Below are positions 11,009 through 31,867 of a DNA stretch of 64,000 bases, in pieces. The stretch is taken from assembly GCF_027497235.1 (NCBI RefSeq), contig NZ_CP114902.1, positions 2,803,501 to 2,867,500 of the forward strand, written 5' to 3'. The notes below the pieces were generated by a model. That model ran no database searches, was not told the DNA's origin, and was given only the letters and a program-made list of their open reading frames with translations. Source of the DNA: Micromonospora sp. WMMD1128 (lineage in GTDB: Bacteria; Actinomycetota; Actinomycetes; Mycobacteriales; Micromonosporaceae). Position 1 is the first letter of the stretch, and each line of letters begins with the position of its first letter. Position numbers and translations under genes: made by a program.

Positions 11009-11106
11009 GGCGTGCTCCCGGGGTGGTGTGCACGCCAGCGGCGGTGATGGTGCGAGGCTTGGGGCGGACGCCGCCGACGGGGCCGGCGACCGCCGTGGGA
11101 GGTGTG

Positions 11107-11883
11107 ATGGCCGAGCCGCCGACCGGGGCGTCCGCGCACCGCGCGCAGGCGCACGGCCGGCACGCCAACCACCGCAGCTACCACGACGGCGCGCAGGTCG
11201 ACGGGTACGTCGACGACCCGTACCACCGGGTGCGCCGGGGCGTCGCGGCCCGGTTGGTGGCCGACGGGGTGACCGGCGGCGGGCCGGTGCTGGAGTTGGG
11301 CTGCGGGCCGCGCGCCATGCTCGACCCGGCAGCGCTGTCCGGCCCGCTCGTGCTCGCCGACATGGCCGAGACGGCGCTGGGCACGGCCCGGCGGGCGGCC
11401 GGCGGCCGGGCGCTGCCGGTCTGCCTGGACGCCACCCGCGGGCTGCCGTTCCGGGCGGGCAGCTTCGCCGGGTTGCTCGCCGGTGAGCTGATCGAGCACG
11501 TCTACGACCCGCTGGCGCTGCTGCGGGAGTGTCACCGGGTGCTGGCCCCGGACGGCCTGCTGGTGCTCACCACGCCGAACCTGGCCCCGGCGCAGGACCG
11601 GTTGGCGTTCCTCGCCGGGCGGGCACCGCGCCAGGTCGACCCGCTGCACCCCTACCTGTGGCTGCACATCCGCCCGTTCACCGCGTCGCTGCTGCGTCGG
11701 GCCTTGCGTCGGGCCGGGTTCACCCCGCTGGCGATGCGCTCCAACGAGGTCGGCTGGCGGCTGCCGGGCGGGCGGTGGGTCTCCTCGCGGTGGCTGGCCC
11801 GGGCGGCCCCGGGGCTCGGCGGATCGCTGATCTGCGCGGCCCGGCGGCGCGCCGCGCCGCCACCGCCCGGAAACAGCGCGTGA
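11107..11883 (+). CDS. Class I SAM-dependent methyltransferase
   Basis: A 258-residue methyltransferase. Motif I is LELGCGPRAMLD, an acidic post-motif II Asp follows in LVLADMAETA, and motif IV-like GELIEHVYDPLALLREC and the strand DGLLVLTTPN match the Methyltransf_11/UbiE group. The acceptor is not deducible. ATG 11107 has GGGAGGT upstream, preferred over the longer frame from 11023. It may be co-transcribed with the 11938 gene 55 bp downstream, though a new promoter is possible. Confidence 0.88.
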   Translation: MAEPPTGASAHRAQAHGRHANHRSYHDGAQVDGYVDDPYHRVRRGVAARLVADGVTGGGPVLELGCGPRAMLDPAALSGPLVLADMAETALGTARRAAGGRALPVCLDATRGLPFRAGSFAGLLAGELIEHVYDPLALLRECHRVLAPDGLLVLTTPNLAPAQDRLAFLAGRAPRQVDPLHPYLWLHIRPFTASLLRRALRRAGFTPLAMRSNEVGWRLPGGRWVSSRWLARAAPGLGGSLICAARRRAAPPPPGNSA

Positions 11884-11937: not shown

Positions 11938-12948
11938 ATGGCGCGCCTGCTCGGCTGGGTCGTCAGCAGTCTCGACGCGTTCATCGGTCTGGTGCTGGCG
12001 GTCACGGTGGCCGTCCTCGGCCTGACCAACACGGTCGGCCAGGACGTGGTCAACAGCGCCATCCTGCTGGTCCTCGCCCTGCTCGCGCAGGCGGTGCTGC
12101 GTGACCGGCTGCGCCGTCGCACCGCCGAGCAGGAGGTCCGTCAGGTCATCGTGGACACCCGGGAGCGGCTCACCGCCCTGGCGCCGTCGATGCGGGAGCT
12201 GACCGGCCCGGAGGGCACCCTGAGCCGGGCCCGGGAGGCGATCCACAGCTCGTCGATGGTGCGCGTGCTGCACGGCAGCGAGGTCGGCCAGGCGCTCGAC
12301 GAGGCACGTCAGCACACCGACAGGTGGGACTTCAAGGGCGGCACTGGCACCTACCTCCGCGCGGTCACGCTGCCGGAGTGCGTGAAGCACGCCCGCCGCC
12401 GCAACGCCACCCTCACCCTCGCCGTCGAGATCATCGACCCGACCGACGAGGAGGTCTGCGAGCGGTACGCGCGGTTCCGGCGCAGCCTGGAGTCGGGCGA
12501 GTCGGCGAAACCGGTCGAGCCGTGGACGGTCGACCGCACCCGCAAGGAGTCGTACGCGACGGTGCTCGCCGCCTGCTGGCACCTGCAACGGTCCGGCCTG
12601 CTCACGGTCGACATCCGGCTCTCCGCCCAGATGACCACGTTCCGCTACGACCTCTCGTCCTCCTGCGTGGTCATCACCCAGGAGAACCCGCAGACGCCGG
12701 CGCTGCGGATCGACCGCGGTGAGGTCTACTACAACCGGTTCAACATCGAGCTGGACTACAGCCGCCGGCAGAGCCGGCGGGTGCCGGTCGAGTCGGCCGG
12801 CCAGGTCAGGCTCGACGACGAGCCGTCGGTCGAGCAGGTCCGCCGGCTGTTCACCGCGCTCGGGCTGACGCTGCCCCGGTCGTTCGGCGACCGGGAGGTG
12901 GCCGACGTCGTGCGCAAGGCCCTCCAGGCGAGGAACCCGTACGCATGA
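11938..12948 (+). CDS. Two-TM membrane protein with uncharacterised cytosolic domain
   Basis: A 336-residue protein with two adjacent N-terminal transmembrane helices (about residues 8-30 and 37-55), a basic charged linker, and a soluble domain of about 270 residues. Recognisable blocks are DFKGGTGTYLRAVTLPE and AVEIIDPTDEEVCERYARFR; these recall phospholipase-D-like-adjacent domains of uncharacterised actinobacterial proteins but no HKD motif is present. GGGGGATGTC precedes ATG 11938. Its stop overlaps the next gene's ATG (ATGA at 12945-12948), and a phosphatase-family gene follows, suggesting a three-gene operon. Function not known; the membrane anchor plus sensor-like domain suggests a signalling or defence role (inference). 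Confidence 0.75.
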   Translation: MARLLGWVVSSLDAFIGLVLAVTVAVLGLTNTVGQDVVNSAILLVLALLAQAVLRDRLRRRTAEQEVRQVIVDTRERLTALAPSMRELTGPEGTLSRAREAIHSSSMVRVLHGSEVGQALDEARQHTDRWDFKGGTGTYLRAVTLPECVKHARRRNATLTLAVEIIDPTDEEVCERYARFRRSLESGESAKPVEPWTVDRTRKESYATVLAACWHLQRSGLLTVDIRLSAQMTTFRYDLSSSCVVITQENPQTPALRIDRGEVYYNRFNIELDYSRRQSRRVPVESAGQVRLDDEPSVEQVRRLFTALGLTLPRSFGDREVADVVRKALQARNPYA

Positions 12949-13598
12949 CCAGCTACGCCGAACTGGCACGGGAGATCGACCGGGGCACCCGGCCGGAGTT
13001 GCTGCGCGGCTGGGTGCTTGAGGTGCTCGGCGACGTCGCCGACGGGCGACGGCCGCTGCGCGCGGTCCGGCACCCGCTCGGTTTCACCTGCCTGCCGGTG
13101 GAGCGCGACGGCCCGGACGGGATCTGCGTGCACGCCTGGCCGGCCGAGCCGCCGCCGGTGCGCCCCACCACCTCGGCCGTGCACTCGCACAGCTGGGACC
13201 TGCTCAGCCACGTGCTGCACGGCTCGGTCCGCAACGAGCTGATCGACGTCACCGACGCGCCCGCCGACCCGTCCTGGCGCGTCTACGAGGTGCACAGCCT
13301 CGGCGAGGTGGACGAGGTGGCGGCCACCGACCGGCTGGTCACCGCCATGACCGCGACCGTGGAGACGCACACGACCGGCGCCTCGTACGCGCTGCGCGCC
13401 GGCGGGTTCCACACCTCCGAGGTCACCCCCGGCGCGCCGGCGGTGACCGTGGCGCTCGGCCGGACCACCCCCGGCGCGTGCGACCTGAGCCTCGGCGCGG
13501 TGGACGGGCGCAGCCACCGCGTACGCCGGGACCGCTGCGACGCGGCGGAGACCGCGCGGATGGCGCGGCAGATCGCGCGACTTGTGGCACGGGGCTGA
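12945..13598 (+). CDS. Cupin-like protein of three-gene cassette
   Basis: A 217-residue soluble protein. HSHSWDLLSHVLHG followed some 60 residues later by AGGFHTSEV looks like the two metal-binding motifs of a cupin barrel, as in cysteine-dioxygenase-like folds, giving at least three candidate His ligands. Whether it is an enzyme or binder is unknown. The ATG overlaps the stop of the 2-TM gene by 4 bp and the next gene starts 15 bp after its stop. Confidence 0.7.
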   Translation: MTSYAELAREIDRGTRPELLRGWVLEVLGDVADGRRPLRAVRHPLGFTCLPVERDGPDGICVHAWPAEPPPVRPTTSAVHSHSWDLLSHVLHGSVRNELIDVTDAPADPSWRVYEVHSLGEVDEVAATDRLVTAMTATVETHTTGASYALRAGGFHTSEVTPGAPAVTVALGRTTPGACDLSLGAVDGRSHRVRRDRCDAAETARMARQIARLVARG

Positions 13599-13613
13599 CT
13601 GGCTGGAGGAGCC

Positions 13614-14516
13614 ATGGACGTGGAGCCGAACAGAGGCGGACCCGACCTGCGCGACGCGCACCGGTTCGCGGTGCAGGCGGCCCGGGCGGCCGGCCGGTTG
13701 CTGCGCGGGGGCCTGCGCGGGGAGGTGCACGCCCGGGCCAAGGACGACTCCGGTGACCTGGTCACCGACCTCGACCTGGCCGCCGAGCGGCTGATCGTCG
13801 ACCGGATCCGGGCCCGCTGGCCGGCACACGGGGTGATCGCCGAGGAGGGTGGCGAGTACGCGCCGGACACCGCCTGGGCGTGGCTCGTGGACCCGCTCGA
13901 CGGCACCAACAACGTGGCGATCGGGCTTCCGGCCTACGTGGTGGGCATCGCCCTGTGCCGGGACGGTTCACCGGTGCTCGGCGTGGTGCACGACCCGGTC
14001 GCCGGCCGGACCTGGTCCGCGGTGCGTGGCCGGGGCGCGTTCGTGCACGGTGCCGACGCGGTGGGCCGACCGCTGCGCGCCGCGCGCCGGGAGGTGCCGG
14101 CCGCGCCGGTGCTGGCCTGGACCCAGGGGCACGGGGTACGCCGGGACGACAGCACCGCCCGGGCGTTGAAGGTCGTCCTCGACAGCACCGCCCGCCGGGT
14201 GCTGCAACTGTGGGCGCCGCTGCTGTCCTGGGTGATGCTGGCCCGGGGCGACATCGACGGCATCGTCGGCTACCACCCCGAGGCGGTCGACCTGCCGGCC
14301 GGGATGTTGCTGGCCGCCGAGGCCGGGATGGCCGTGCGCGCGCTCGACGGCGGCACGTTCGACGACAGGTACGGCACCCCGGCGGACCGGCGCAGTTTCG
14401 TGGCCGGCCCGCCGGAGACGATCGACCGGCTGGTCAAGCTGGTCACCGCGGCGCAGTGGATCGAACCGCAGGTGCGCCGCCTCACCCCGGTCAGTCTCGG
14501 CTCGGTCGGCTGGTGA
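13614..14516 (+). CDS. Inositol-monophosphatase-family phosphatase
   Basis: A 300-residue Mg2+-dependent phosphatase of the IMPase/FBPase/CysQ superfamily. Metal ligands are visible in IAEEGGEY (Glu), VDPLDGTNN (DPLDGT) and VDLPAGMLLAAEAG (distal Asp). The family dephosphorylates inositol phosphates, histidinol phosphate, fructose bisphosphate or 3'-phosphoadenosine nucleotides; the sequence does not decide which. GGAGGAGCC precedes ATG 13614. It is the third gene of the cassette with the 2-TM and cupin-like proteins, so a substrate linked to them is likely. It runs 26 bp into the convergent SDR gene. Confidence 0.88.
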   Translation: MDVEPNRGGPDLRDAHRFAVQAARAAGRLLRGGLRGEVHARAKDDSGDLVTDLDLAAERLIVDRIRARWPAHGVIAEEGGEYAPDTAWAWLVDPLDGTNNVAIGLPAYVVGIALCRDGSPVLGVVHDPVAGRTWSAVRGRGAFVHGADAVGRPLRAARREVPAAPVLAWTQGHGVRRDDSTARALKVVLDSTARRVLQLWAPLLSWVMLARGDIDGIVGYHPEAVDLPAGMLLAAEAGMAVRALDGGTFDDRYGTPADRRSFVAGPPETIDRLVKLVTAAQWIEPQVRRLTPVSLGSVGW

Positions 14517-19532: not shown

Positions 19533-21197
19533 ATGAGATCCGCACCCACGCTGCGCCGCGCCCCCGCCCCGGACCGCACCGGCCCCCCGCACCGGGGCGA
19601 CCTGGCCGCGGTCGCCGTCGAGGTGGCGCTGCTCGCCGCCGCCGTCGTGGTCGGGCTGGTGCTCAACCGGCGCGGCGTCGGCCTGCACGCCGACACCGCG
19701 CCGCTGTACGCCACCTGGCGGCCACACCTCGGCTGGGGTACGCCGCTCGCGGCGCTCGTCGTGCTGGCCGTGCTCGGGCCGGGGCTGCGGTGGGCGCGTA
19801 CCGCCCGATGGGGGCCGCTGCTGGCCGCCGGCTGGCTGGCGGCGGTGGCCTGGACGCTGGCGCTGGCCCTGGTGGACGGGTGGACCGTGGGGCTGGCCCG
19901 GCGGTTGACGCCGCAGGCGGAATACCTGCACGAGGTGCCCGGGGTGACCGACATCCCCCGGATGCTGGCCGGGTTCACCGACCGGATCCTCGACTTCCAG
20001 CCCGACTCCTGGTCCACCCACACCGCCGGGCACCCGCCCGGCGCGCTGCTGGTCTTCGTCTGGCTCGACCGGGTCGGGCTCGGGGGCGGCGCCGCCGCCG
20101 CGCTCTGCTGCGTGCTTGTCGGCGCGACGGTCGCGGTCACCGTACCGGCCACGCTGCGCGCGCTGGGCGCCGCCGACGCGGCCCGGGCGGTGTTGCCGTT
20201 CCTGGTGCTGCTGCCCGGGGCGGTGTGGCTGGGCGCCTCCGCCGACGCGGTGTTCACCGGCGTGGTCGCCGCCGGGCTGGCCCTGCTGGCGGTACGCGGG
20301 CCGCTCGCCGCGCTGGCCGGCGGGCTGCTGCTCGGCTTCGCGCTGCACCTGTCGTACGGGTTCGTGCTGGTCGGCGTGCTGGCGGTGACCGTGCTGGCGT
20401 TGCGGCCGGACCGCCGCCGGGAAGCCCTGCTCGCCGCCGTTGCCGGTGTCGCGGCGGTCACGGCGCTCTTCGTGCTCGGCGGTTTCCGCTGGTGGGAGGG
20501 GTACGAGCGGGTCGTCGAGCGCTACTACCAGGGTTGGGCGGCCGACCGCCCGTACGCCTACTGGGTCTGGGCGAACCTGGCCGCGCTGCTGCTCTCCGCC
20601 GGCCCGGTGCTCGGGCCGGCGCTGCGCCGCACCGCCGTCGCCGCCCGAGCCACCTGGCACGCCGTTGGCGGTCCCGGAGTCGTCGGGCACGCAGCCGTCG
20701 GGCAGGGAGTCGTCGGGCACGCCGTCGCCGGGCACGCCGTCGTCGGGCACGCCGTCGTCGGGCCTGATGCCGCCGGGCCTGATGCTGCCGGGCATGCTGT
20801 CGTCGGGCCTGCTGTCGTCGGGCCTGCTGTCGTCGGGCCTGATGCCGCCGGGTTGGTGAGGTCGGGCGCTGTGGAGGCTGGGCCGGCTGGCAGTCGCTTC
20901 CAGGGCTCCACGGGCGACGTGCCGTCATCGGTCGGCTGGCCGGCCCGGGCCCTCCGGGCGCGACGATTTGTCGGGCTCGGGCCGACGGTGCTGCTACCGG
21001 CCGCCGCCGCGCTGGTGGTGGCCGCCGCCGACCTGTCGGGAATGAGCAAGGCCGAAGTGGAGCGGATCTGGCTCCCGTTCGTGGTCTGGTTGCTCGTCGC
21101 CGTCGCGCACCTGCCCCCGCCGGCCCGCCGCTGGTGGCTGGCCGCCCAGGCACTGACCGCCCTGCTCGTCAACCACCTGCTCCTCACAGTCTCCTGA
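19533..21197 (+). CDS. Polytopic membrane protein, putative GT-C/mannosyltransferase-like
   Basis: A 554-residue integral membrane protein with roughly 10-12 hydrophobic helices. The extracytoplasmic loop containing DSWSTHTAGHPPGALLVFVW resembles the first loop of GT-C glycosyltransferases that use polyprenyl-linked sugars. Residues about 380-440 are a low-complexity Val-Val-Gly-His/Pro-Ala tract encoded by a 15-bp minisatellite, placed in a loop before the last helices. Start ATG 19533; TACCGT lies 9 nt upstream. It is divergent from the GT2 operon, so the two may act together in envelope glycan synthesis (inference). Confidence 0.8.
   Translation: MRSAPTLRRAPAPDRTGPPHRGDLAAVAVEVALLAAAVVVGLVLNRRGVGLHADTAPLYATWRPHLGWGTPLAALVVLAVLGPGLRWARTARWGPLLAAGWLAAVAWTLALALVDGWTVGLARRLTPQAEYLHEVPGVTDIPRMLAGFTDRILDFQPDSWSTHTAGHPPGALLVFVWLDRVGLGGGAAAALCCVLVGATVAVTVPATLRALGAADAARAVLPFLVLLPGAVWLGASADAVFTGVVAAGLALLAVRGPLAALAGGLLLGFALHLSYGFVLVGVLAVTVLALRPDRRREALLAAVAGVAAVTALFVLGGFRWWEGYERVVERYYQGWAADRPYAYWVWANLAALLLSAGPVLGPALRRTAVAARATWHAVGGPGVVGHAAVGQGVVGHAVAGHAVVGHAVVGPDAAGPDAAGHAVVGPAVVGPAVVGPDAAGLVRSGAVEAGPAGSRFQGSTGDVPSSVGWPARALRARRFVGLGPTVLLPAAAALVVAAADLSGMSKAEVERIWLPFVVWLLVAVAHLPPPARRWWLAAQALTALLVNHLLLTVS
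20671..20853 (+). repeat. 15-bp in-frame minisatellite within membrane-protein gene
   Basis: About twelve units of 15 bp based on GTCGTCGGGCACGCC, with variants ending CCTGCT or CCTGAT, encode VVGHA/VVGPA/VVGPD-type pentapeptides. The unit length keeps the frame open at any copy number. Confidence 0.85.
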
Positions 21198-21350: not shown

Positions 21351-21405
21351 GATCATGAGGTTGACGGCTCTGTTGATCTCGGCTGATGCCGCCAACCTCA
21401 TGATC
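21351..21405. repeat. 55-bp palindromic element GATCATGAGGTT (copy 1)
   Basis: Arms GATCATGAGGTTGACGGC and GCCGCCAACCTCATGATC (one mismatch) close a variable 19-bp loop. Elements of exactly 55 bp with the same arms occur at 31942-31996 and 53447-53501. Confidence 0.8.
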
Positions 21406-21540
21406 GACGTCGGGCCCCTTCGGTTGGATTTGGGGCGGGAGGAGAGCGCGTGGCGAGTTTCGGTCGATGATCGGCACCGGTTCGGTGAAGTGGTGGCATC
21501 CCCGCCGGCCGGATACCGCCACCTCGCCGAGCTGGCGTCC

Positions 21541-21622
21541 GGCCACCCAGCCACCCAGCCACCCGGCCACCCGGCCATCCGGCCATCCGGCCATCCGGCC
21601 ATCCGGCCACCCGGCCATCTCG
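21541..21622. repeat. 8-bp tandem repeat array
   Basis: About ten units of CCACCCGG/CCATCCGG (consensus GGCCAYCC). It sits in the same non-coding gap as the two palindromic elements. No gene is supported in 21198-21755. Confidence 0.85.
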
Positions 21623-24751: not shown

Positions 24752-25981
24752 TCAGGCGCCCGGGCCGACCAGCAGGGCGAGCACCGTGCCGGCGGTGGCG
24801 AGGGCGGCGAGCGCGGCGCTCGTCGCCACGAACCGGCCCAGCGGCACCGCCACGCCGGCGGCCCGGCACCGCTCGTACCAGATCAGCGTGGCCAGCGACG
24901 CCCACGGCGTGGCCAGCGGGCCGACGTTCGTGCCGACGAGCAGCGCCAGCAGTTGGGTGTGCCGGTCGGCGGCGATCACCGCCTCACCGGCCAGGTACGC
25001 GGGCAGGTTGTTCACCGCGTTGCTGAACAGCGCGCCGACGGCGCCCGCCCGCAGCGCGCCCTCCGCACCCGGGTCGGTGCCGATCAGCGCGCCCATCACA
25101 TGGTCCAGGCCGTGTCGCCCGATGGTCTGCACCACCAGGAACAGCCCGGTCACGAACACCAGCAGCCGCCACGGCACCAGCGCCGGGCGCAGCCGGTGCC
25201 GGGCCCGTACCGCGAAACCGGCGACCAGGATCGCGGCGGCCACCCCGGAGGCGACGCCGATCTCCACGCCGGCCAGCACCCCGGCGACGAAGAGCAGGCA
25301 GGCGACGAGCGCGGTGCGGAAGACCACCCGGTCCGGTGGCTGGTAGGGCGGCGGCGGGACGAACGGGTCGGCGTCGGCGCGCGCCGGCCGCCAGTACCAC
25401 CACCACAGCAGCAGCATGGTGACGGCGATGGCGACCACCTGCGGCCACCACATCCGCGCCGCCCACGGCAGCGGGTCCAGGCCGATCCGGTTGCTGGCCA
25501 GGATGTTCGTCAGGTTGGACACCGGCAGCAGCAGGCTCGCCGTGTTGGCCAGCCACACCGTGGTCATGGCCAGCGGCGTCGGCGGCACGTTGAGCGTCCG
25601 GGCCAGGGCGATCATCACCGGCGTGAGCAGCACCGCAGTGGTGTCCAGGTTGAGCGCGATGGTGGTCACCGACGCGACGACGACGCAGAGCCAGAACAGC
25701 GCCCGGAAGCTGCCCCGCGCGGTGATCGCCACCCGGGCGGCGAGCGCGTCGAAGACGCCCGCGATCGCGGTCAACTCGGCCAGCACCACCACCGTGCCGA
25801 GGAAGATCAGGATGGGGCCGATCCGGCGCATCGTGGCCTCGGCGTCCGCGCGCGGCAGCAGGCCGGTGAGGACGCAGAGCACGCCGGCCACGGCCAGCCC
25901 GATCGCGATCCAGTCCAACGGGTGCAGTTGCCGACGGGGCCGGTCCGGCGCGGCGGACGGCGGGTCGCCGACGGTCTCCAC
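24752..25981 (-). CDS. ArsB/NhaD-type arsenite/anion transporter-like protein
   Basis: A 409-residue protein with about ten transmembrane helices of the ion-transporter superfamily. Signatures NLDTTAVLLTPVMIALART, TVWLANTASLLLPVSNLTN and SNAVNNLPAYLA match actinobacterial ArsB-like proteins (arsenite/antimonite or dicarboxylate-type permeases). The GTG at 25981 has GAGGATCG upstream and fits the family length; an in-frame ATG at 26080 would add 33 residues and leave only 9 bp to the divergent TIR gene. No arsR or arsC lies next to it, so arsenic specificity is unproven. Confidence 0.85.
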   Translation of the reverse strand: METVGDPPSAAPDRPRRQLHPLDWIAIGLAVAGVLCVLTGLLPRADAEATMRRIGPILIFLGTVVVLAELTAIAGVFDALAARVAITARGSFRALFWLCVVVASVTTIALNLDTTAVLLTPVMIALARTLNVPPTPLAMTTVWLANTASLLLPVSNLTNILASNRIGLDPLPWAARMWWPQVVAIAVTMLLLWWWYWRPARADADPFVPPPPYQPPDRVVFRTALVACLLFVAGVLAGVEIGVASGVAAAILVAGFAVRARHRLRPALVPWRLLVFVTGLFLVVQTIGRHGLDHVMGALIGTDPGAEGALRAGAVGALFSNAVNNLPAYLAGEAVIAADRHTQLLALLVGTNVGPLATPWASLATLIWYERCRAAGVAVPLGRFVATSAALAALATAGTVLALLVGPGA

Positions 25982-26077: not shown

Positions 26078-26083
26078 CATAAT
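26078..26083 (+). promoter_or_regulatory. -10 element CATAAT of the TIR-NACHT gene
   Basis: CATAAT ends 6 nt before GTG 26090 and there is no ribosome site, so the large TIR gene is probably transcribed without a leader. No clear -35 at 17 bp. Confidence 0.5.
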
Positions 26084-26089
26084 GACCAC

Positions 26090-29000
26090 GTGGCTGTAGG
26101 CGCGCACCCCACCCGGTCCGACCGCCCGATCGACTTCTTCATCAGCTACTCGCCCGCCGACGAGCGCTGGGCGACGTGGCTGGCCTGGGAGTTCGAGGAG
26201 GCGGGCTACCGCACCCTGCTCCAGGCGTGGGACTTCGTCGCCGGCACCAACTTCATCGACTTCATGGACCGTGGGGTCCGCGAGGCCGAGGTGGTGGTGG
26301 CGGTGCTGTCCGAACGCTACCTGCACTCGACGTACGGCAAGCTGGAGTGGCAGGCGGCGCTGCGCGCCGACCCGGACGGCACCGGCAACAAGCTGGTCAC
26401 GGTGCGGGTGGAGGACTGCCCGATCGACGGCCTGCTCGCCACCATCACCTACGTCGACCTGGTCGGGGTGGACGACCCGGCGCGGGCCCGCGCCCGGGTG
26501 CTGGACCGGATCCGGGAGGCGCTCGACGGCCGGGCCAAACCGATGCGCCAGCCGATGTTCCCGCGCCACCTCGACGATCCCGCCGGCGTGCTCGCCGGGC
26601 CCGTCGCCGGTGCGCCCGCGCAGCGCCGGCCACGGCGTACCCCGATCAACCCGCCGCCGTTCCCGCCGGCCGCGGCGGCGCCGCCGACCGCCCGCGACAC
26701 CATCACCGTGCTCCAGGTGGGCGGCCCGCGGTTCGGCCGTGGCGTCATCTCCCCGGGCGCCCCGGTCACCCCCGGCGAGGTTCAGGAACACCTGATGGGC
26801 GACCTGACGCTGCTGATGAACGACGGGGTGCCCCGGCCGGACCTGCTGGTGGTGGCCGGCAATCTGACCGAGTCGGGCAGCGCACGCGAGTTCTCCGACG
26901 CGCTGAGCTTCCTCACCGGGCTGCGGGTGCTGCTCGGCCTGGAGCCGCACCGGCTGGTCGTGGTGCCCGGCCCGCGCGACGTGACGATGGCCGCGTCCCG
27001 GGCCTACTTCGCCACCTGCGAGGCCGACGATGTCGACCCGCAGCCGCCCTACTGGCCCAAGTGGCGGCACTACGCGCGGCTCTTCGACGACCTCTACCAG
27101 GGCCTCGACGACCGGATCTTCGACAGCGAGCAGCCCTGGACGCTGTTCGCGGTGCCCGACCTGCGGGTGGTGGTGGCCGGGTTGAACTCCACCATCGCCA
27201 TCACCCACCGCGAGGAGGACCGGTACGGCTTCCTCGGCGAGGCGCAGTCCGCCTGGTTCGCCCAGCGGCTGCGGCACTACCAGCAGTCCGGCTGGCTGCG
27301 GCTGGGCGCGATGGCGCACGCCCCCGGCCCCCGCAGCCCGTACGCCGACGAGGTCCCGCCGGACCGGGTGTCGCTGCGCGACCGCGGCTCGGTCAACCGG
27401 CTGGTCGGCCCGATGCTCAACCTGCTGCTCTCCGACGCCGCGCCGACCGGGCGGGCCGACCCGGTGGTGCCGCTCGTCGCCGCCCCGCGCGACGGCCGGG
27501 CCCAGGTGCTGCGGCTCGGCGCGGACGGGATGACGCGCTGGGTGCTCGGCCGCGACGACCGCCGGGACGCCGGCGAGTCGACCGCGGTGGGCTGGCCCCG
27601 GGCCGAGGCGACGTTCGGCGCGTCCGGCCCGGCCCAGGTGCCCGACCCGCGGCGTCCGGCCACCGGGGAGGGCCCCACCCAGGGCGAGGCCGCCCCGGCG
27701 GTGGCGGCGGCGACCCCGGTGGAGCGGCTGCTCGACCGCCTCGCCGAGGTGTGCGAGGCCCGCTACGACCGGGTGCTGGTGCGCCGGGTCGACGCCGACC
27801 CGCCGCATCTGTACGTCAGCTACCGCTCCGACGGCGTGGTCCGGCAGCAGCGGGTCGGCGCGCACGTGGGCACGCCCGCGCCGGCCGACGTGGACCGGTT
27901 CGCCCGCCGGGTGCACGCCACCGACCCGGACATTCCCTCGGAGCTTGTCTACGACGGCGACCGGGTGCCGCGCGGGCTGGCCGAGGAGGCACAGCGGCGC
28001 GGCGTCCGGGTGCTGCACCTGACCGAGTTCCAGGGCCTGCTCGACCTGCGCGACTACGTCGCCGCGCAGACCGCCCGGCTCCAGGCCGACCGGCTCTACC
28101 CGCCGGGCCAGTACGTGCCGCAGCGCTACCGCCACCTGGTCGGCGCCGACCAGCGGGTCCGCGAGGACGTGGTGGACGAGCTGCTGGAGACGGTCTCCGC
28201 GCCGGACGGCCGGTTCGTGCTCGTGCTCGGCGACTTCGGCCGGGGCAAGACGTTCGCGCTGCGCGAGGTGGCCCGCCGGCTGCCCACCGCCGCGCCGGAC
28301 CTGATCCCGATCCTGGTCGAGCTGCGCGCGCTGGACAAGGCGCACTCCGTCGACGGCCTGGTCGCCGCGCACCTGGCCAACCACGGCGAGCAGGTGATCG
28401 ACCTGAAGGCGTTCCGCTACATGCTGCGCCAGGGCCGCATCGTGCTGCTCTTCGACGGGTTCGACGAGCTGGTGGCCCGGGTGACCTACGACCGGGCGGC
28501 CGACCACCTGGAGACACTGCTCCAGGCGGCCGAGGGCGCCGCGAAGATCGTGGTGAGCAGCCGCACCCAGCACTTCAAGACCAACTCGCAGGTGCTGACC
28601 GCGTTGGGCGAGCGGGTCGGCCTGCTGCCGCACCGCCGCGTGCTCTCGGTGGAGGACTTCACCCCGGGCCAGATCGAGTCGTTCCTGCGTAACCGCTACG
28701 GCGGCGACGAGACGGCGGCCCGGGATCGGATGAGCCTGCTCGCCGGCGTGAACGACCTGCTCGGGCTCTCCCGCAACCCGCGCATGCTCGGGTTCATCGC
28801 CAACCTGGACGAGGGGCGGCTGGCCGCGGTGGCCGGGGCCGGCGGCACGTTCAGCGCCGCCACGCTCTACCGGGAGATCCTGGCCGCCTGGCTGGACTTC
28901 GAGGAACGGCGTACCCAGGGCATCCCGGGCGCGCCGGTGAATTTGCGGCGGCCCGAGCTGTGGCAGGCGGTGAGCCGGCTGGCGTTCCAGCTCTGGGAGA

Positions 29001-31867
29001 GCGGCGAGTCCTACCTGCGGCTGGCCGAGCTGACCGAGGCCACCGGCCAGCTCGCCGGGCGGGCCGAGTCCCGGCTGTCCGGGCCGCAGGCCGCCCACGC
29101 GGTGGGCGCCGGCAGCCTGCTGGTCCGCACCGACGACGGGCTGTTCGGGTTCATCCACACCTCGGTGATGGAGTGGCTGGTCGCCGACGGCGTCGCGGAC
29201 CAGCTCAACCGGGGGGAGGAGCCGACCGCGCTGGCGGTGCGGTCGCTGTCCGCGCTGGCCGTGGAGTTCCTCGGCGACCTCGCCGACCCGGCCCGCTGCA
29301 CCGCGTGGACGGCCCGCGTGCTCGGCGACGAGTCGGCCGGCGAGACGCTGCGCGCCAACGCGATGCGGCTCAGCGCCCGGCTGCGCCTGCCCGACCGGGC
29401 CGACCTGCGCGGCGCGGTGCTGCGCGGCGAGGACCTGTCCCACCGGGAGCTGGCCGGGGCCGACCTGACCGGCGCCGACCTGACCGACGCCCGGCTGGTG
29501 GCCACGAACCTGACCGAGGCCCGGCTGGAACACGCCCGGCTGCGGGGCGCGCGGCTCGACCAGGCCCGCCTCGCCGGGGCGGACCTGCGCGACGCGGACC
29601 TGGCCGGCGCCCGGCTGTTCCGGGCCGACCTGCGCGGGGCGCGGACAGCCGGCAGCAGCTGGCACCGGACGGCGTTGATCGACGTCAACGCCGACCCGGG
29701 GTTGCTGCGGGCCCCGGAGCTGCGCGGAGCGGTCGTCGCGCCGGGCCGGCCGGTGACGCCGGGCCTGGCCCCGCCCGCGGTGGGAGTCGGGTACGGCTTC
29801 GAGGTGGGACGGCTGCCGGTGCCGGTCGCCTACAGCCCGGACGGCGCGGTGCTGGCGGTCGGCAACGACGACGGTGGCGTGCTGCTCTGCGACACGGCCA
29901 CCGGGCTGGCGGTGCGTACCCTCCAGGGCCACCGGTCCCGGGTCTACGCGGTCCGCTACGACGCCGCCTCGCACCAACTCGTCACCGGCGCGGCGGACCT
30001 CACCGTACGGTTGTGGGACGCCGACCACGGCGACGTGCGGCACGTCATCGAGGACGTCTTCACCGGCTGGGTGTGGCCGCTGCTCACCGACGGGCGCCGG
30101 GGCCGGCTGGTGGTGGGTGACGCGGCCGGCGTGGTCCGGCTCTACGACACCCGCACCGCACGGCTGCGCCACACGTGGCGGGGGCACGCGGCGCCGATCT
30201 GGGGAACCTCGTTCAGCCCGGACGGCCGGCGGGTCGTGGTGGCGGACAGCGCCGGCACGGTCCGCGGCTGGGACGTCCACACCGGCCGGCTGGCGTTCGA
30301 GGTGCGCGAGCCGGAGGTGGTCTACCGGGTGGTGCACTCACCGGACGGCCGGCTGCTGGCCGCCGTCGGGCAGCACGGGCGGGTCTGGATCCGCCGGGCC
30401 ACCGACGGCGAGCTGCTGCGCCAGCCCCGCGGCCACGAGGCCGACGTGTACGCCCTCGACATCCACCCGGACGGCACGCTGATGGCCACCGGCGACACGC
30501 ACGGCGCGCTGCGGCTGTGGGAGACGGAGACCGGCCGCCCGGTGCGGGTGCTCGGCCGGCAGCGCGGCGCCATCTACAGCGTCCGGTTCAACGGCGACGG
30601 CAGCCTGCTCGCCACCTCCGCGAGCGACGGCGCGATCCAGCTCTGGGACACCGACGACGGTCAGGTGCGGCACGAGCTGACCCGGCACCGGGGCTCGGTC
30701 TGGCCGGTGGTGTGGCGGCCGGACCAGGCGCAGGTGGCGACCAGCAGCAACGACGGCACCACCCGGCTGTGGGACGTGCGCACCGGGCAGCTCCAGCAGA
30801 CGCTGCGCGGGCACGGGCGGCGGGTCACCGCGCTCTCCTTCCGCGACGACGGGGAGGTGCTGGCGGCCTGCGGCAACGACGGCCTGATCCGGCTCTGGGA
30901 GCCGCGCACCGGCCGCCTGCTGCGGCGGCTCGCCACCCCGGCCGACCGCCTGCTCTCGGTGGTCTTCTGCCCGGACGAGCCGATGGTGGCCACGCCCAGC
31001 GGCGACGGCGGTGTGCACCTGTGGAACACCGACACCGGCGCCGACGAGCGGGAACTCAACGTGGACACCGATCACGTCTGGGCGGTCGCGTTCAGCCCGG
31101 ACGGCGACGCGCTCGCGACCGCGAACGACGACGACACCGTACGCCTGTGGTACCGCCGCACCGGCCGGCATTTCGCCACGCTCACCCCGCACGGGGGGCG
31201 GGTGCGCACGGTGGCGTTCAGCCCCGACGGCGAGACCATCGCGACCGGCGGCGACGACCGGACGGTACGACTGTGGGACGCGGCCACCGCCACCTGCCGG
31301 CTGACCCTGGAACACCACACCGACCGGGTCTACTCGGTCGGCTTCAACGCCGAGGGCACGCTGCTGGCGAGCGCCGGCAACGACGGCACGGCGGTGATCT
31401 GGGACGTGTCCACCGGCGAGCGACGCACCGTGCTCACCGCGCACGTCGGGCGGCTCTGGTCGTGCGCGTTCAGCCCGGACGGCAACCTGCTCGCCACCGC
31501 CGGGGACGACCTGGTGATCCGGCTGTGGGATCCGGGCACCGGGCGGCTGCACGGCACCCTGGCCGCGCACACCCGGCGGGTCTGGTCGGTGCACTTCAGC
31601 CCGGACAGCAGCCTGCTCGCCAGCGCCGGCGACGACGGGACGGTCCGGCTGTGGGACGTGGCGGACCCGGAGCACGCCCAGTTGCGGACCACGCTCATCG
31701 GCCTGCCGGACGGTTGGGCGGCGGTCAGCCCCGACGGCCGGTACAAGCTGGACGGCGACCCGGGCGGCCAGTTCTGGCACGTCATCGGCACCTGCCGCTT
31801 CGAGGTCGGCGAGCTGGATCCTTATCTCACCCACGTCCGCCGCCTACCCGTCGACGCCCCCTTCTGA
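26090..31867 (+). CDS. Multidomain STAND protein: TIR - degenerate metallophosphoesterase - NACHT - pentapeptide repeats - WD40
   Basis: A 1925-residue protein, GTG start. Domains in order: TIR (about 10-150; DFFISYSPADERWA, catalytic-position Glu86 in GKLEWQAAL). A calcineurin-like phosphoesterase fold follows (about 204-410) with its metal motifs changed: GNLTE for GDLTE, GPRD for GNHD. Residues about 544-683 are an uncharacterised domain ending SELVYDG...VLHLTEFQGL, possibly nuclease-like. NACHT NTPase (about 684-1000) has Walker A GDFGRGKT at 714-721, Walker B LLFDGFDE at 786-793 and sensor SSRTQ. Pentapeptide repeats (ADLxGA type) span about 1103-1184. About 15 WD40 blades run from about 1240 to 1885, ending in an FWHVIGTCRFEVGELDPY cap. 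STAND proteins recognise a trigger through the repeats, oligomerise and activate the effector; a TIR effector usually degrades NAD+. A role in antiphage defence or programmed death is inferred. No dedicated partner gene is adjacent. Confidence 0.93.
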   Translation: MAVGAHPTRSDRPIDFFISYSPADERWATWLAWEFEEAGYRTLLQAWDFVAGTNFIDFMDRGVREAEVVVAVLSERYLHSTYGKLEWQAALRADPDGTGNKLVTVRVEDCPIDGLLATITYVDLVGVDDPARARARVLDRIREALDGRAKPMRQPMFPRHLDDPAGVLAGPVAGAPAQRRPRRTPINPPPFPPAAAAPPTARDTITVLQVGGPRFGRGVISPGAPVTPGEVQEHLMGDLTLLMNDGVPRPDLLVVAGNLTESGSAREFSDALSFLTGLRVLLGLEPHRLVVVPGPRDVTMAASRAYFATCEADDVDPQPPYWPKWRHYARLFDDLYQGLDDRIFDSEQPWTLFAVPDLRVVVAGLNSTIAITHREEDRYGFLGEAQSAWFAQRLRHYQQSGWLRLGAMAHAPGPRSPYADEVPPDRVSLRDRGSVNRLVGPMLNLLLSDAAPTGRADPVVPLVAAPRDGRAQVLRLGADGMTRWVLGRDDRRDAGESTAVGWPRAEATFGASGPAQVPDPRRPATGEGPTQGEAAPAVAAATPVERLLDRLAEVCEARYDRVLVRRVDADPPHLYVSYRSDGVVRQQRVGAHVGTPAPADVDRFARRVHATDPDIPSELVYDGDRVPRGLAEEAQRRGVRVLHLTEFQGLLDLRDYVAAQTARLQADRLYPPGQYVPQRYRHLVGADQRVREDVVDELLETVSAPDGRFVLVLGDFGRGKTFALREVARRLPTAAPDLIPILVELRALDKAHSVDGLVAAHLANHGEQVIDLKAFRYMLRQGRIVLLFDGFDELVARVTYDRAADHLETLLQAAEGAAKIVVSSRTQHFKTNSQVLTALGERVGLLPHRRVLSVEDFTPGQIESFLRNRYGGDETAARDRMSLLAGVNDLLGLSRNPRMLGFIANLDEGRLAAVAGAGGTFSAATLYREILAAWLDFEERRTQGIPGAPVNLRRPELWQAVSRLAFQLWESGESYLRLAELTEATGQLAGRAESRLSGPQAAHAVGAGSLLVRTDDGLFGFIHTSVMEWLVADGVADQLNRGEEPTALAVRSLSALAVEFLGDLADPARCTAWTARVLGDESAGETLRANAMRLSARLRLPDRADLRGAVLRGEDLSHRELAGADLTGADLTDARLVATNLTEARLEHARLRGARLDQARLAGADLRDADLAGARLFRADLRGARTAGSSWHRTALIDVNADPGLLRAPELRGAVVAPGRPVTPGLAPPAVGVGYGFEVGRLPVPVAYSPDGAVLAVGNDDGGVLLCDTATGLAVRTLQGHRSRVYAVRYDAASHQLVTGAADLTVRLWDADHGDVRHVIEDVFTGWVWPLLTDGRRGRLVVGDAAGVVRLYDTRTARLRHTWRGHAAPIWGTSFSPDGRRVVVADSAGTVRGWDVHTGRLAFEVREPEVVYRVVHSPDGRLLAAVGQHGRVWIRRATDGELLRQPRGHEADVYALDIHPDGTLMATGDTHGALRLWETETGRPVRVLGRQRGAIYSVRFNGDGSLLATSASDGAIQLWDTDDGQVRHELTRHRGSVWPVVWRPDQAQVATSSNDGTTRLWDVRTGQLQQTLRGHGRRVTALSFRDDGEVLAACGNDGLIRLWEPRTGRLLRRLATPADRLLSVVFCPDEPMVATPSGDGGVHLWNTDTGADERELNVDTDHVWAVAFSPDGDALATANDDDTVRLWYRRTGRHFATLTPHGGRVRTVAFSPDGETIATGGDDRTVRLWDAATATCRLTLEHHTDRVYSVGFNAEGTLLASAGNDGTAVIWDVSTGERRTVLTAHVGRLWSCAFSPDGNLLATAGDDLVIRLWDPGTGRLHGTLAAHTRRVWSVHFSPDSSLLASAGDDGTVRLWDVADPEHAQLRTTLIGLPDGWAAVSPDGRYKLDGDPGGQFWHVIGTCRFEVGELDPYLTHVRRLPVDAPF

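Follow-up and report, generated by a model that had tools for sequence, protein, structure and literature searches.

The window, by which we mean the whole stretch of 64,000 nucleotides analysed from Micromonospora sp. WMMD1128, contains an intact open reading frame on the forward strand (26090–31867), with a GTG start, no internal stops and a deduced product of 1925 residues; the same start was picked by a codon-position gene caller written for this analysis. The preliminary description had placed in this single gene a TIR domain, a metallophosphoesterase (MPE) fold, an extra domain, a NACHT domain, pentapeptide repeats and about 15 WD40 repeats, and this entire architecture was recovered with Pfam, profile searches and a repeat script. 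The genes and features of the locus are as follows.

11104–11880, + strand: class I methyltransferase gene adjoining TM336
11938–12945, + strand: TM336, partner gene; two N-terminal hydrophobic helices, a long helix and a domain that is weakly PLD-like and lacks HKD
12945–13595, + strand: p217, partner gene; predicted 3-His cupin (His80, His82, His156), cysteine-dioxygenase-like (model and conservation)
13614–14513, + strand: IMPase, partner gene; inositol-monophosphatase-family enzyme (Inositol_P), DPLDGT motif kept
24752–25981, − strand: ArsB/CitMHS-family transporter, divergent partner gene (profile); start uncertain, up to about 26082
26078–26083, + strand: −10-like hexamer CATAAT, 6 nt before the GTG
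26090–31867, + strand: TIR-pseudoMPE-NA-iREase3-NACHT-pentapeptide-WD40 gene, 1925 aa (ORF, Pfam and gene caller)
26135–26491, + strand: TIR_2 domain, residues 16–134, with Glu86 (Pfam, E 1.6e-34)
26699–27589, + strand: degenerate MPE fold, about residues 204–500; GGPRFG, GNLTE, PGPRDV, no GHxH (profile and homology)
27722–28048, + strand: NA-iREase3 (PF22739), NACHT-associated inactive restriction endonuclease, residues 545–653 (Pfam)
28211–28693, + strand: NACHT domain (Pfam), with Walker A (GDFGRGKT, residue 714) and Walker B (LLFDGFDE, residue 786)
29396–29653, + strand: pentapeptide repeats, about residues 1103–1188 (Pfam, E 2e-19)
29774–31699, + strand: 15 WD40-like repeats of about 42 residues each (script and eye)

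Of 90 upstream regions, 64 carry a hexamer of this −10-like form 4–9 nt before a start codon (0.9 on average after shuffling) and 26 do not; its position in the window suggests that the TIR-NACHT gene is probably transcribed without a leader. This hexamer is the sole recurring element at the divergent start, a palindrome having been dropped because it is absent from the relatives.

Domains and selection

Since a PF22739 survey of 296 genomes of the phylum, with at least two found, scored part of its candidates, relatives were instead surveyed with a core alignment (A1) of the MPE, iREase and NACHT regions. This identified at least 455 relatives in species genomes; the best 80, all actinobacterial by their record titles, were studied and make up, with the window protein, 81 aligned rows. 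Inspection of the sequence placed Glu86 and both Walker motifs at the residues originally indicated. Glu86, which we take to be the TIR catalytic position, is kept in all 78 rows that reach it. The TIR fold with Glu at this position is what is expected of a TIR NADase, and the domain may well have this activity; nevertheless, the TIRs of Toll-like receptors also have Glu at the equivalent position, so that Glu86 is no proof of it. The NACHT domain (PF05729, E 2.2e-9) scores above its cut-off, and Lys720, Asp789, Asp792 and Glu793 of the Walker motifs are present in 81/81 rows. The combination of TIR, NACHT motifs and a C-terminal repeat platform supports the STAND, NLR-like logic first proposed, and by its motifs the protein belongs with the NACHT-clade STAND switches.

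The extra domain is indeed present, but it is not uncharacterised, as had been stated: it matches the named family NA-iREase3 at E 2.1e-38 with the piece and 3e-36 with the whole protein, over profile positions 2–118 of 118, and we saw no domain-level difference from the family.

Pfam detects 12 WD40 stretches, versus the 15 repeats found by script and eye. Mean identity among the blades is 30.5 %. Mean dN/dS among 15 Micromonospora orthologues was lowest of the six domains for the TIR (0.061), followed by NACHT (0.125), the pentapeptide repeats (0.140), MPE (0.169), WD40 (0.172) and iREase (0.212), indicating purifying selection, on average, on all six. The blade identity and the mean dN/dS, which are averages over sites, gave no indication of a hypervariable WD40 sensor, and on that average the sensor carries no sign of an arms race.

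The degenerate phosphoesterase domain and its variants

The MPE region of the window protein gave no Pfam match above cut-off. However, the family profile of this region matches PDB 2hy1 (Rv0805, which we take to be a cyclic-nucleotide phosphodiesterase) at 1.3e-7, NCBIfam DS9_1 matches it at 4.9e-12 (45 bits, for a cut-off of 420), and Pfam assigns Metallophos (2.9e-13) to the corresponding region of homologue L148, which is co-linear over the whole core; the three matches together identify the MPE. Active calcineurin-type MPEs bind metal through the motifs DxH, GDxx, GNHD and GHxH. The Asp that is the first of these ligands is present in 0/81 rows, the motif II Asp in 50 and the motif III Asn and His in 3 and 24, respectively; only the motif III Asp and the motif IV His are kept in all 81. 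This motif check thus found neither an active calcineurin-type nor a DS-8-type ligand set in the window protein, in agreement with the initial designation as a pseudo-phosphoesterase. Its mean dN/dS indicates that the dead domain is still constrained.

A near-intact MPE (SD-x-Q, GDLxET, PGNHDVN, HHNP and GHxH) occurs in L147, L148, L149 and L154, which form a separate paralogue group in the tree of the iREase-NACHT part, where the deepest branches are weakly supported. Their family (f99) is probably Frankiaceae, judging from the placement of its members beside named Frankia loci. The first motif, D-x-Q, presumably resembles that of Mn-dependent ADP-ribose diphosphatases. No TIR precedes the MPE of L148, and this MPE matches the antiphage phosphoesterase model DS9_1 at 1.1e-30, below the cut-off, while L148 also matches DS8 weakly (1.2e-7). 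A rule by which the MPE would be intact only where the TIR is absent is broken by L147, L149 and L154, which have both a TIR and a near-intact MPE.

A TIR of the same type precedes the core in 77 of the best 80 homologues. Two of the three exceptions are cut by a contig end (L047 and L101) and the other, L030, has a broken start; L023, apparently on the same contig as L030, has the TIR in another frame. Elsewhere the TIR is replaced by an XRE-like (L021) or a trypsin-like (L022) domain, both labelled by eye, and the MPE is absent from other relatives, such as L157, L159 and L160. Two more, divergent NACHT-core proteins lie apart from any such module in G676 (L213:249-12738), beside a gene that by eye looks trypsin-like.

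In G006, the gene caller gives an XRE-MPE-iREase-NACHT-WD40 protein of 1854 aa, encoded in an apparent operon together with p217, a methyltransferase and a separate 505-aa TIR-MPE protein; G680 has the same arrangement, its TIR-MPE frame containing a stretch of unknown bases. In both, p217 is the one partner that travels with the split form; none of the other three occurs in the 20 kb fetched. Effector and switch have only the MPE domain in common here, suggesting, from two genomes of one genus, that the MPE pairs them. Alternatively, the separate TIR-MPE may be a truncated remnant.

Conserved partner genes

The preliminary description regarded the gene as standing alone, a one-gene system. 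This view does not hold, because an ArsB/CitMHS neighbour is found in 78 of the best 80 loci and three more genes co-occur with it. Neighbourhoods were called with the codon-position gene caller, clustering by raw ORFs being too noisy. The transporter gene is adjacent in 89/95 gene-called neighbourhoods (83 divergent, and 6 directly downstream on the same strand); by profile, it lies divergently upstream in 76 of the 78 loci and downstream on the same strand in L084 and L089. The two loci where it was not seen, L047 and L101, lie on contigs that end just before the gene, and it is present in 76/76 of the best-80 loci that have 2.2 kb of upstream sequence.

The other partners, TM336, p217 and IMPase, occupy 11938–14513 in the window, ca. 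12 kb from the TIR-NACHT gene. Of the 74 loci that extend 6 kb or more upstream, 67 contain TM336, 70 p217 and 66 IMPase, and 64 have all four partners. Of the ten loci short of all four, five from Micromonospora and L070 may hold the rest beyond the stretch; IMPase is missing outright in L068 and L086, where p217 abuts ArsB; no IMPase match was found in the stretch for L081; and neither TM336 nor IMPase occurs within 8 kb in L089. The usual order is TM336> p217> IMPase> <ArsB TIR-NACHT>. Six Frankiaceae-type loci (L084, L089, L136, L138, L139 and L140) have directly downstream a different ArsB-like gene, about 31 % identical, and two of them (L138 and L140) retain all partners in a rearranged order, TM336> p217> IMPase> NACHT> ArsB-like>. 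Methyltransferase homologues adjoin the module in some Micromonospora and Frankiaceae loci. None of the four partners was seen within the stretches fetched for Frankia-type paralogues (L142–L150 and L152–L169).

The transporter matches CitMHS (6.2e-33), ArsB (6.2e-22) and a solved arsenical pump (6e-24). IMPase matches Inositol_P at 1e-41 and falls below the cut-offs of HisN, CysQ and every other curated NCBIfam model. The model of p217 (pLDDT 92.4) has its best PDB matches among cysteine and cysteamine dioxygenases, at E about 1e-5 and with TM-scores mostly of 0.3–0.5; His80, His82 and His156 are invariant across 31 rows and probably bind metal. The modeled cupin fold and these three residues make p217 a candidate 3-His thiol-dioxygenase-like protein. 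The TM336 model is of lower confidence (pLDDT 83) and gave weak PLD-like fold matches, the best at 7.1e-4; with no HKD and no invariant His in 30 rows, we do not assign it to the PLD superfamily. In a PADLOC search, none of TM336, p217, IMPase and ArsB had a match at E 0.01; the methyltransferase matched mad2 weakly.

Also in the window, the ORF list shows short amino-acid-level repeats (VVGHAVVG-like and GWPDGRMAGWPDGR-like) in overlapping frames at 20500–20800 and 21398–21620.

Co-occurrence was examined in three sets of genomes, scoring part of each genome's first-look candidates. Among 41 relatives, the TIR-type core occurs in eight genomes and p217 in seven of these plus G006; the exception, G022, has its core on a 4.3-kb contig. 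The survey of 151 genomes of the genus scored the NACHT core, without checking the TIR genome by genome, and a strong core was defined by at least 535 bits. Cupin and core were both present in 39 genomes and both absent from 106, with core only in two (G022 and the trypsin-type G023) and cupin only in four (G607, full-length at 2.5e-44; G604, G610 and G630, weak and partial), p217 being found at E <1e-60 in 39 of the 41 genomes with a strong core. The association (Fisher, 4e-29) is descriptive and ignores kinship. Among 296 genomes of the class, 11 contain the orthologous clade, of which ten are either the window itself or were assigned by the tree, and G504 by its 1693 bits; p217 occurs in 11/11 and in 3/285 others (G459, G541 and G566), and TM336 in 10/11 (not in G432) and in the same three others.

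In G459 and G566 (L201 and L202) the TM336-p217 pair lies between coaE and uvrB, with no NACHT, ArsB or IMPase in the stretch, and represents a reduced or independent two-gene form. In G541 (L203:8263-13253), TM336, p217 and IMPase are divergent from a different TIR protein, of 646 aa, which gave no Pfam match at E 1 beyond its TIR. These loci and G607 show that the partners are not strictly bound to the TIR-NACHT gene. The transporter also occurs alone in Micromonospora genomes lacking TIR-NACHT, as a sister group of the linked ArsBs, which qualifies the idea that ArsB and NACHT are always together. In such genomes (L184–L193), a 64–74 % identical ArsB is situated elsewhere, and several of these transporter genes lie near a UDP-glucose dehydrogenase-like gene.

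Inheritance, known systems and proposed function

In the ArsB tree, the transporters cluster according to taxonomic family. The block of Streptosporangiaceae and Thermomonosporaceae has coaE, a GNAT gene and rpsA on one side and often uvrB on the other (the labels coaE, rpsA, uvrB and polA on flanking genes are our assumption from the sequences, with no family search), and other families have different flanks. Housekeeping contexts, which had initially been named as an argument against defence, thus exist in these two families, the rest having other surroundings. Their presence also raises the possibility that the neighbours reflect conserved core synteny with no functional tie, as does the absence of single partners from some members. 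However, cupin and core are mostly jointly present or absent in the genus despite the ca. 12 kb between them in the window, the block of the Frankiaceae-type loci has a new order and another ArsB-like gene, and p217 accompanies the split form without the other three partners; mere synteny is therefore very improbable.

We found no phage records matching at 1e-10; five viral contigs have distant matches to parts of the iREase-NACHT region, and the single match in a plasmid collection at 1e-20 is an 11.85-Mb record. These searches, together with the flanking genes seen in the called neighbourhoods, do not point to a gene of mobile defence islands. It also weighs on the original proposal of a stand-alone antiphage abortive-infection gene, swapped between strains like other defence genes. 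That proposal draws on the TIR-STAND logic, on the patchy distribution in the genus (strong core in 41/151 genomes), on the DS9_1 match of the L148 MPE and on DS-8, an MPE-NACHT protein from DefensePredictor which is described, in the accessible part of its report, as a validated antiphage protein that needs its MPE catalytic residues (PMC13092281). Conserved, co-occurring neighbours, a partner tree grouped by family, the coaE/rpsA-uvrB site in two families and a WD40 mean dN/dS of 0.17 argue against it, and we consider it unlikely.

The metabolic type of the partners, together with the same family-wise inheritance, core-chromosome site in two families and conserved WD40, would suit a regulator of signalling or homeostasis (anion, thiol or nucleotide stress, or hyphal development), and not of immunity, in which the TIR would make a signal, the cupin and IMPase would work on small molecules and ArsB would export. 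Against this, the TIR-NACHT layout and the comparable DS-8, as far as its report was available (PMC13092281), favour immunity, and IMPase stays below every curated NCBIfam cut-off. This is a serious competitor, although we rate it as the less probable one.

The preliminary description could not place this architecture in a described system. Its parts do have precedents. DS-8 shares with the window protein a metallophosphoesterase and a NACHT in one polypeptide; the metallophosphatase of DS-9 is called homologous to that of DS-8 (PMC13092281, available portion), and the NCBIfam model DS9_1 matches the MPE here. As compared by description, the window protein differs from DS-8 in the loss of the MPE catalytic residues, the TIR in front, the iREase, pentapeptides and WD40 behind, and the four partners (same source). 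N-terminal TIR or calcineurin domains are likewise coupled to STAND NTPases in the STAND and TRADD-N conflict systems of multicellular bacteria (PMC7159879, PMC8195603), but the accessible text of these papers presents them as alternatives and mentions no such partner set, whereas here TIR and dead MPE stand in series with NA-iREase3. Bacterial NLR-like bNACHT proteins, such as bNACHT25, have the central NACHT domain in common, but not the TIR effector, dead MPE, WD40 repeats or gene cluster. NCBIfam EruA matches the window protein weakly (2.8e-7, 29.1 bits, for a cut-off of 1000). No description of the serial TIR-dead MPE-iREase-NACHT layout with its partner set was recognised in the literature covered, mainly titles and abstracts, with subscription papers and some preprints outside its scope. 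The domains and general logic are already known, and what seems to be without a printed precedent is the serial layout with conserved partners.

Taken together, we interpret the gene as the NLR-like TIR switch of a conserved, vertically inherited five-gene module (TM336, the p217 cupin, IMPase, the ArsB-type transporter and TIR-NACHT), with a probability of about 0.5. Because DS-8 needs the MPE active site, and this site is gone here, the TIR is by analogy the likeliest effector. For such a module, the WD40 and pentapeptide repeats would keep the protein off and sense a constant internal or infection-made cue. Assembly of the NACHT domains, driven by ATP, would bring the TIR domains together, leading to NAD+ cleavage, with depletion or an ADP-ribose-type signal, and to arrest or death of the hyphal compartment. 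The dead MPE and inactive endonuclease would not cut, being retained for structure or for pairing the effector with the switch, and the transporter, phosphatase, cupin and membrane protein could set, transmit or reset the signal. A role in defence is in this sense presumptive. More tentatively, the module might constitute a new innate-immunity or cell-fate system of filamentous actinobacteria, inherited vertically, in which the dead phosphoesterase is a pairing adaptor joining interchangeable effectors (TIR, XRE or trypsin-like) to a NACHT-WD40 switch, and the transporter, thiol-dioxygenase-like cupin, IMPase-family enzyme and two-helix membrane protein form a signalling arm.

The product is an exceptionally large bacterial protein related to the immune switches of animals and plants. 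What was a lone odd gene becomes a testable unit of five parts, which filamentous soil bacteria tend to keep as a set; it occurs in several of their families and can be worked on in laboratory Streptomyces. The relatives provide a natural series, from a near-intact phosphoesterase to a dead one with a TIR and to separate TIR-MPE and MPE-NACHT proteins, which lets one ask how a receptor of the immune type exchanges one effector for another and reuses an old enzyme as a scaffold. NLR-like proteins kept vertically in the core genome would escape defence-island searches.
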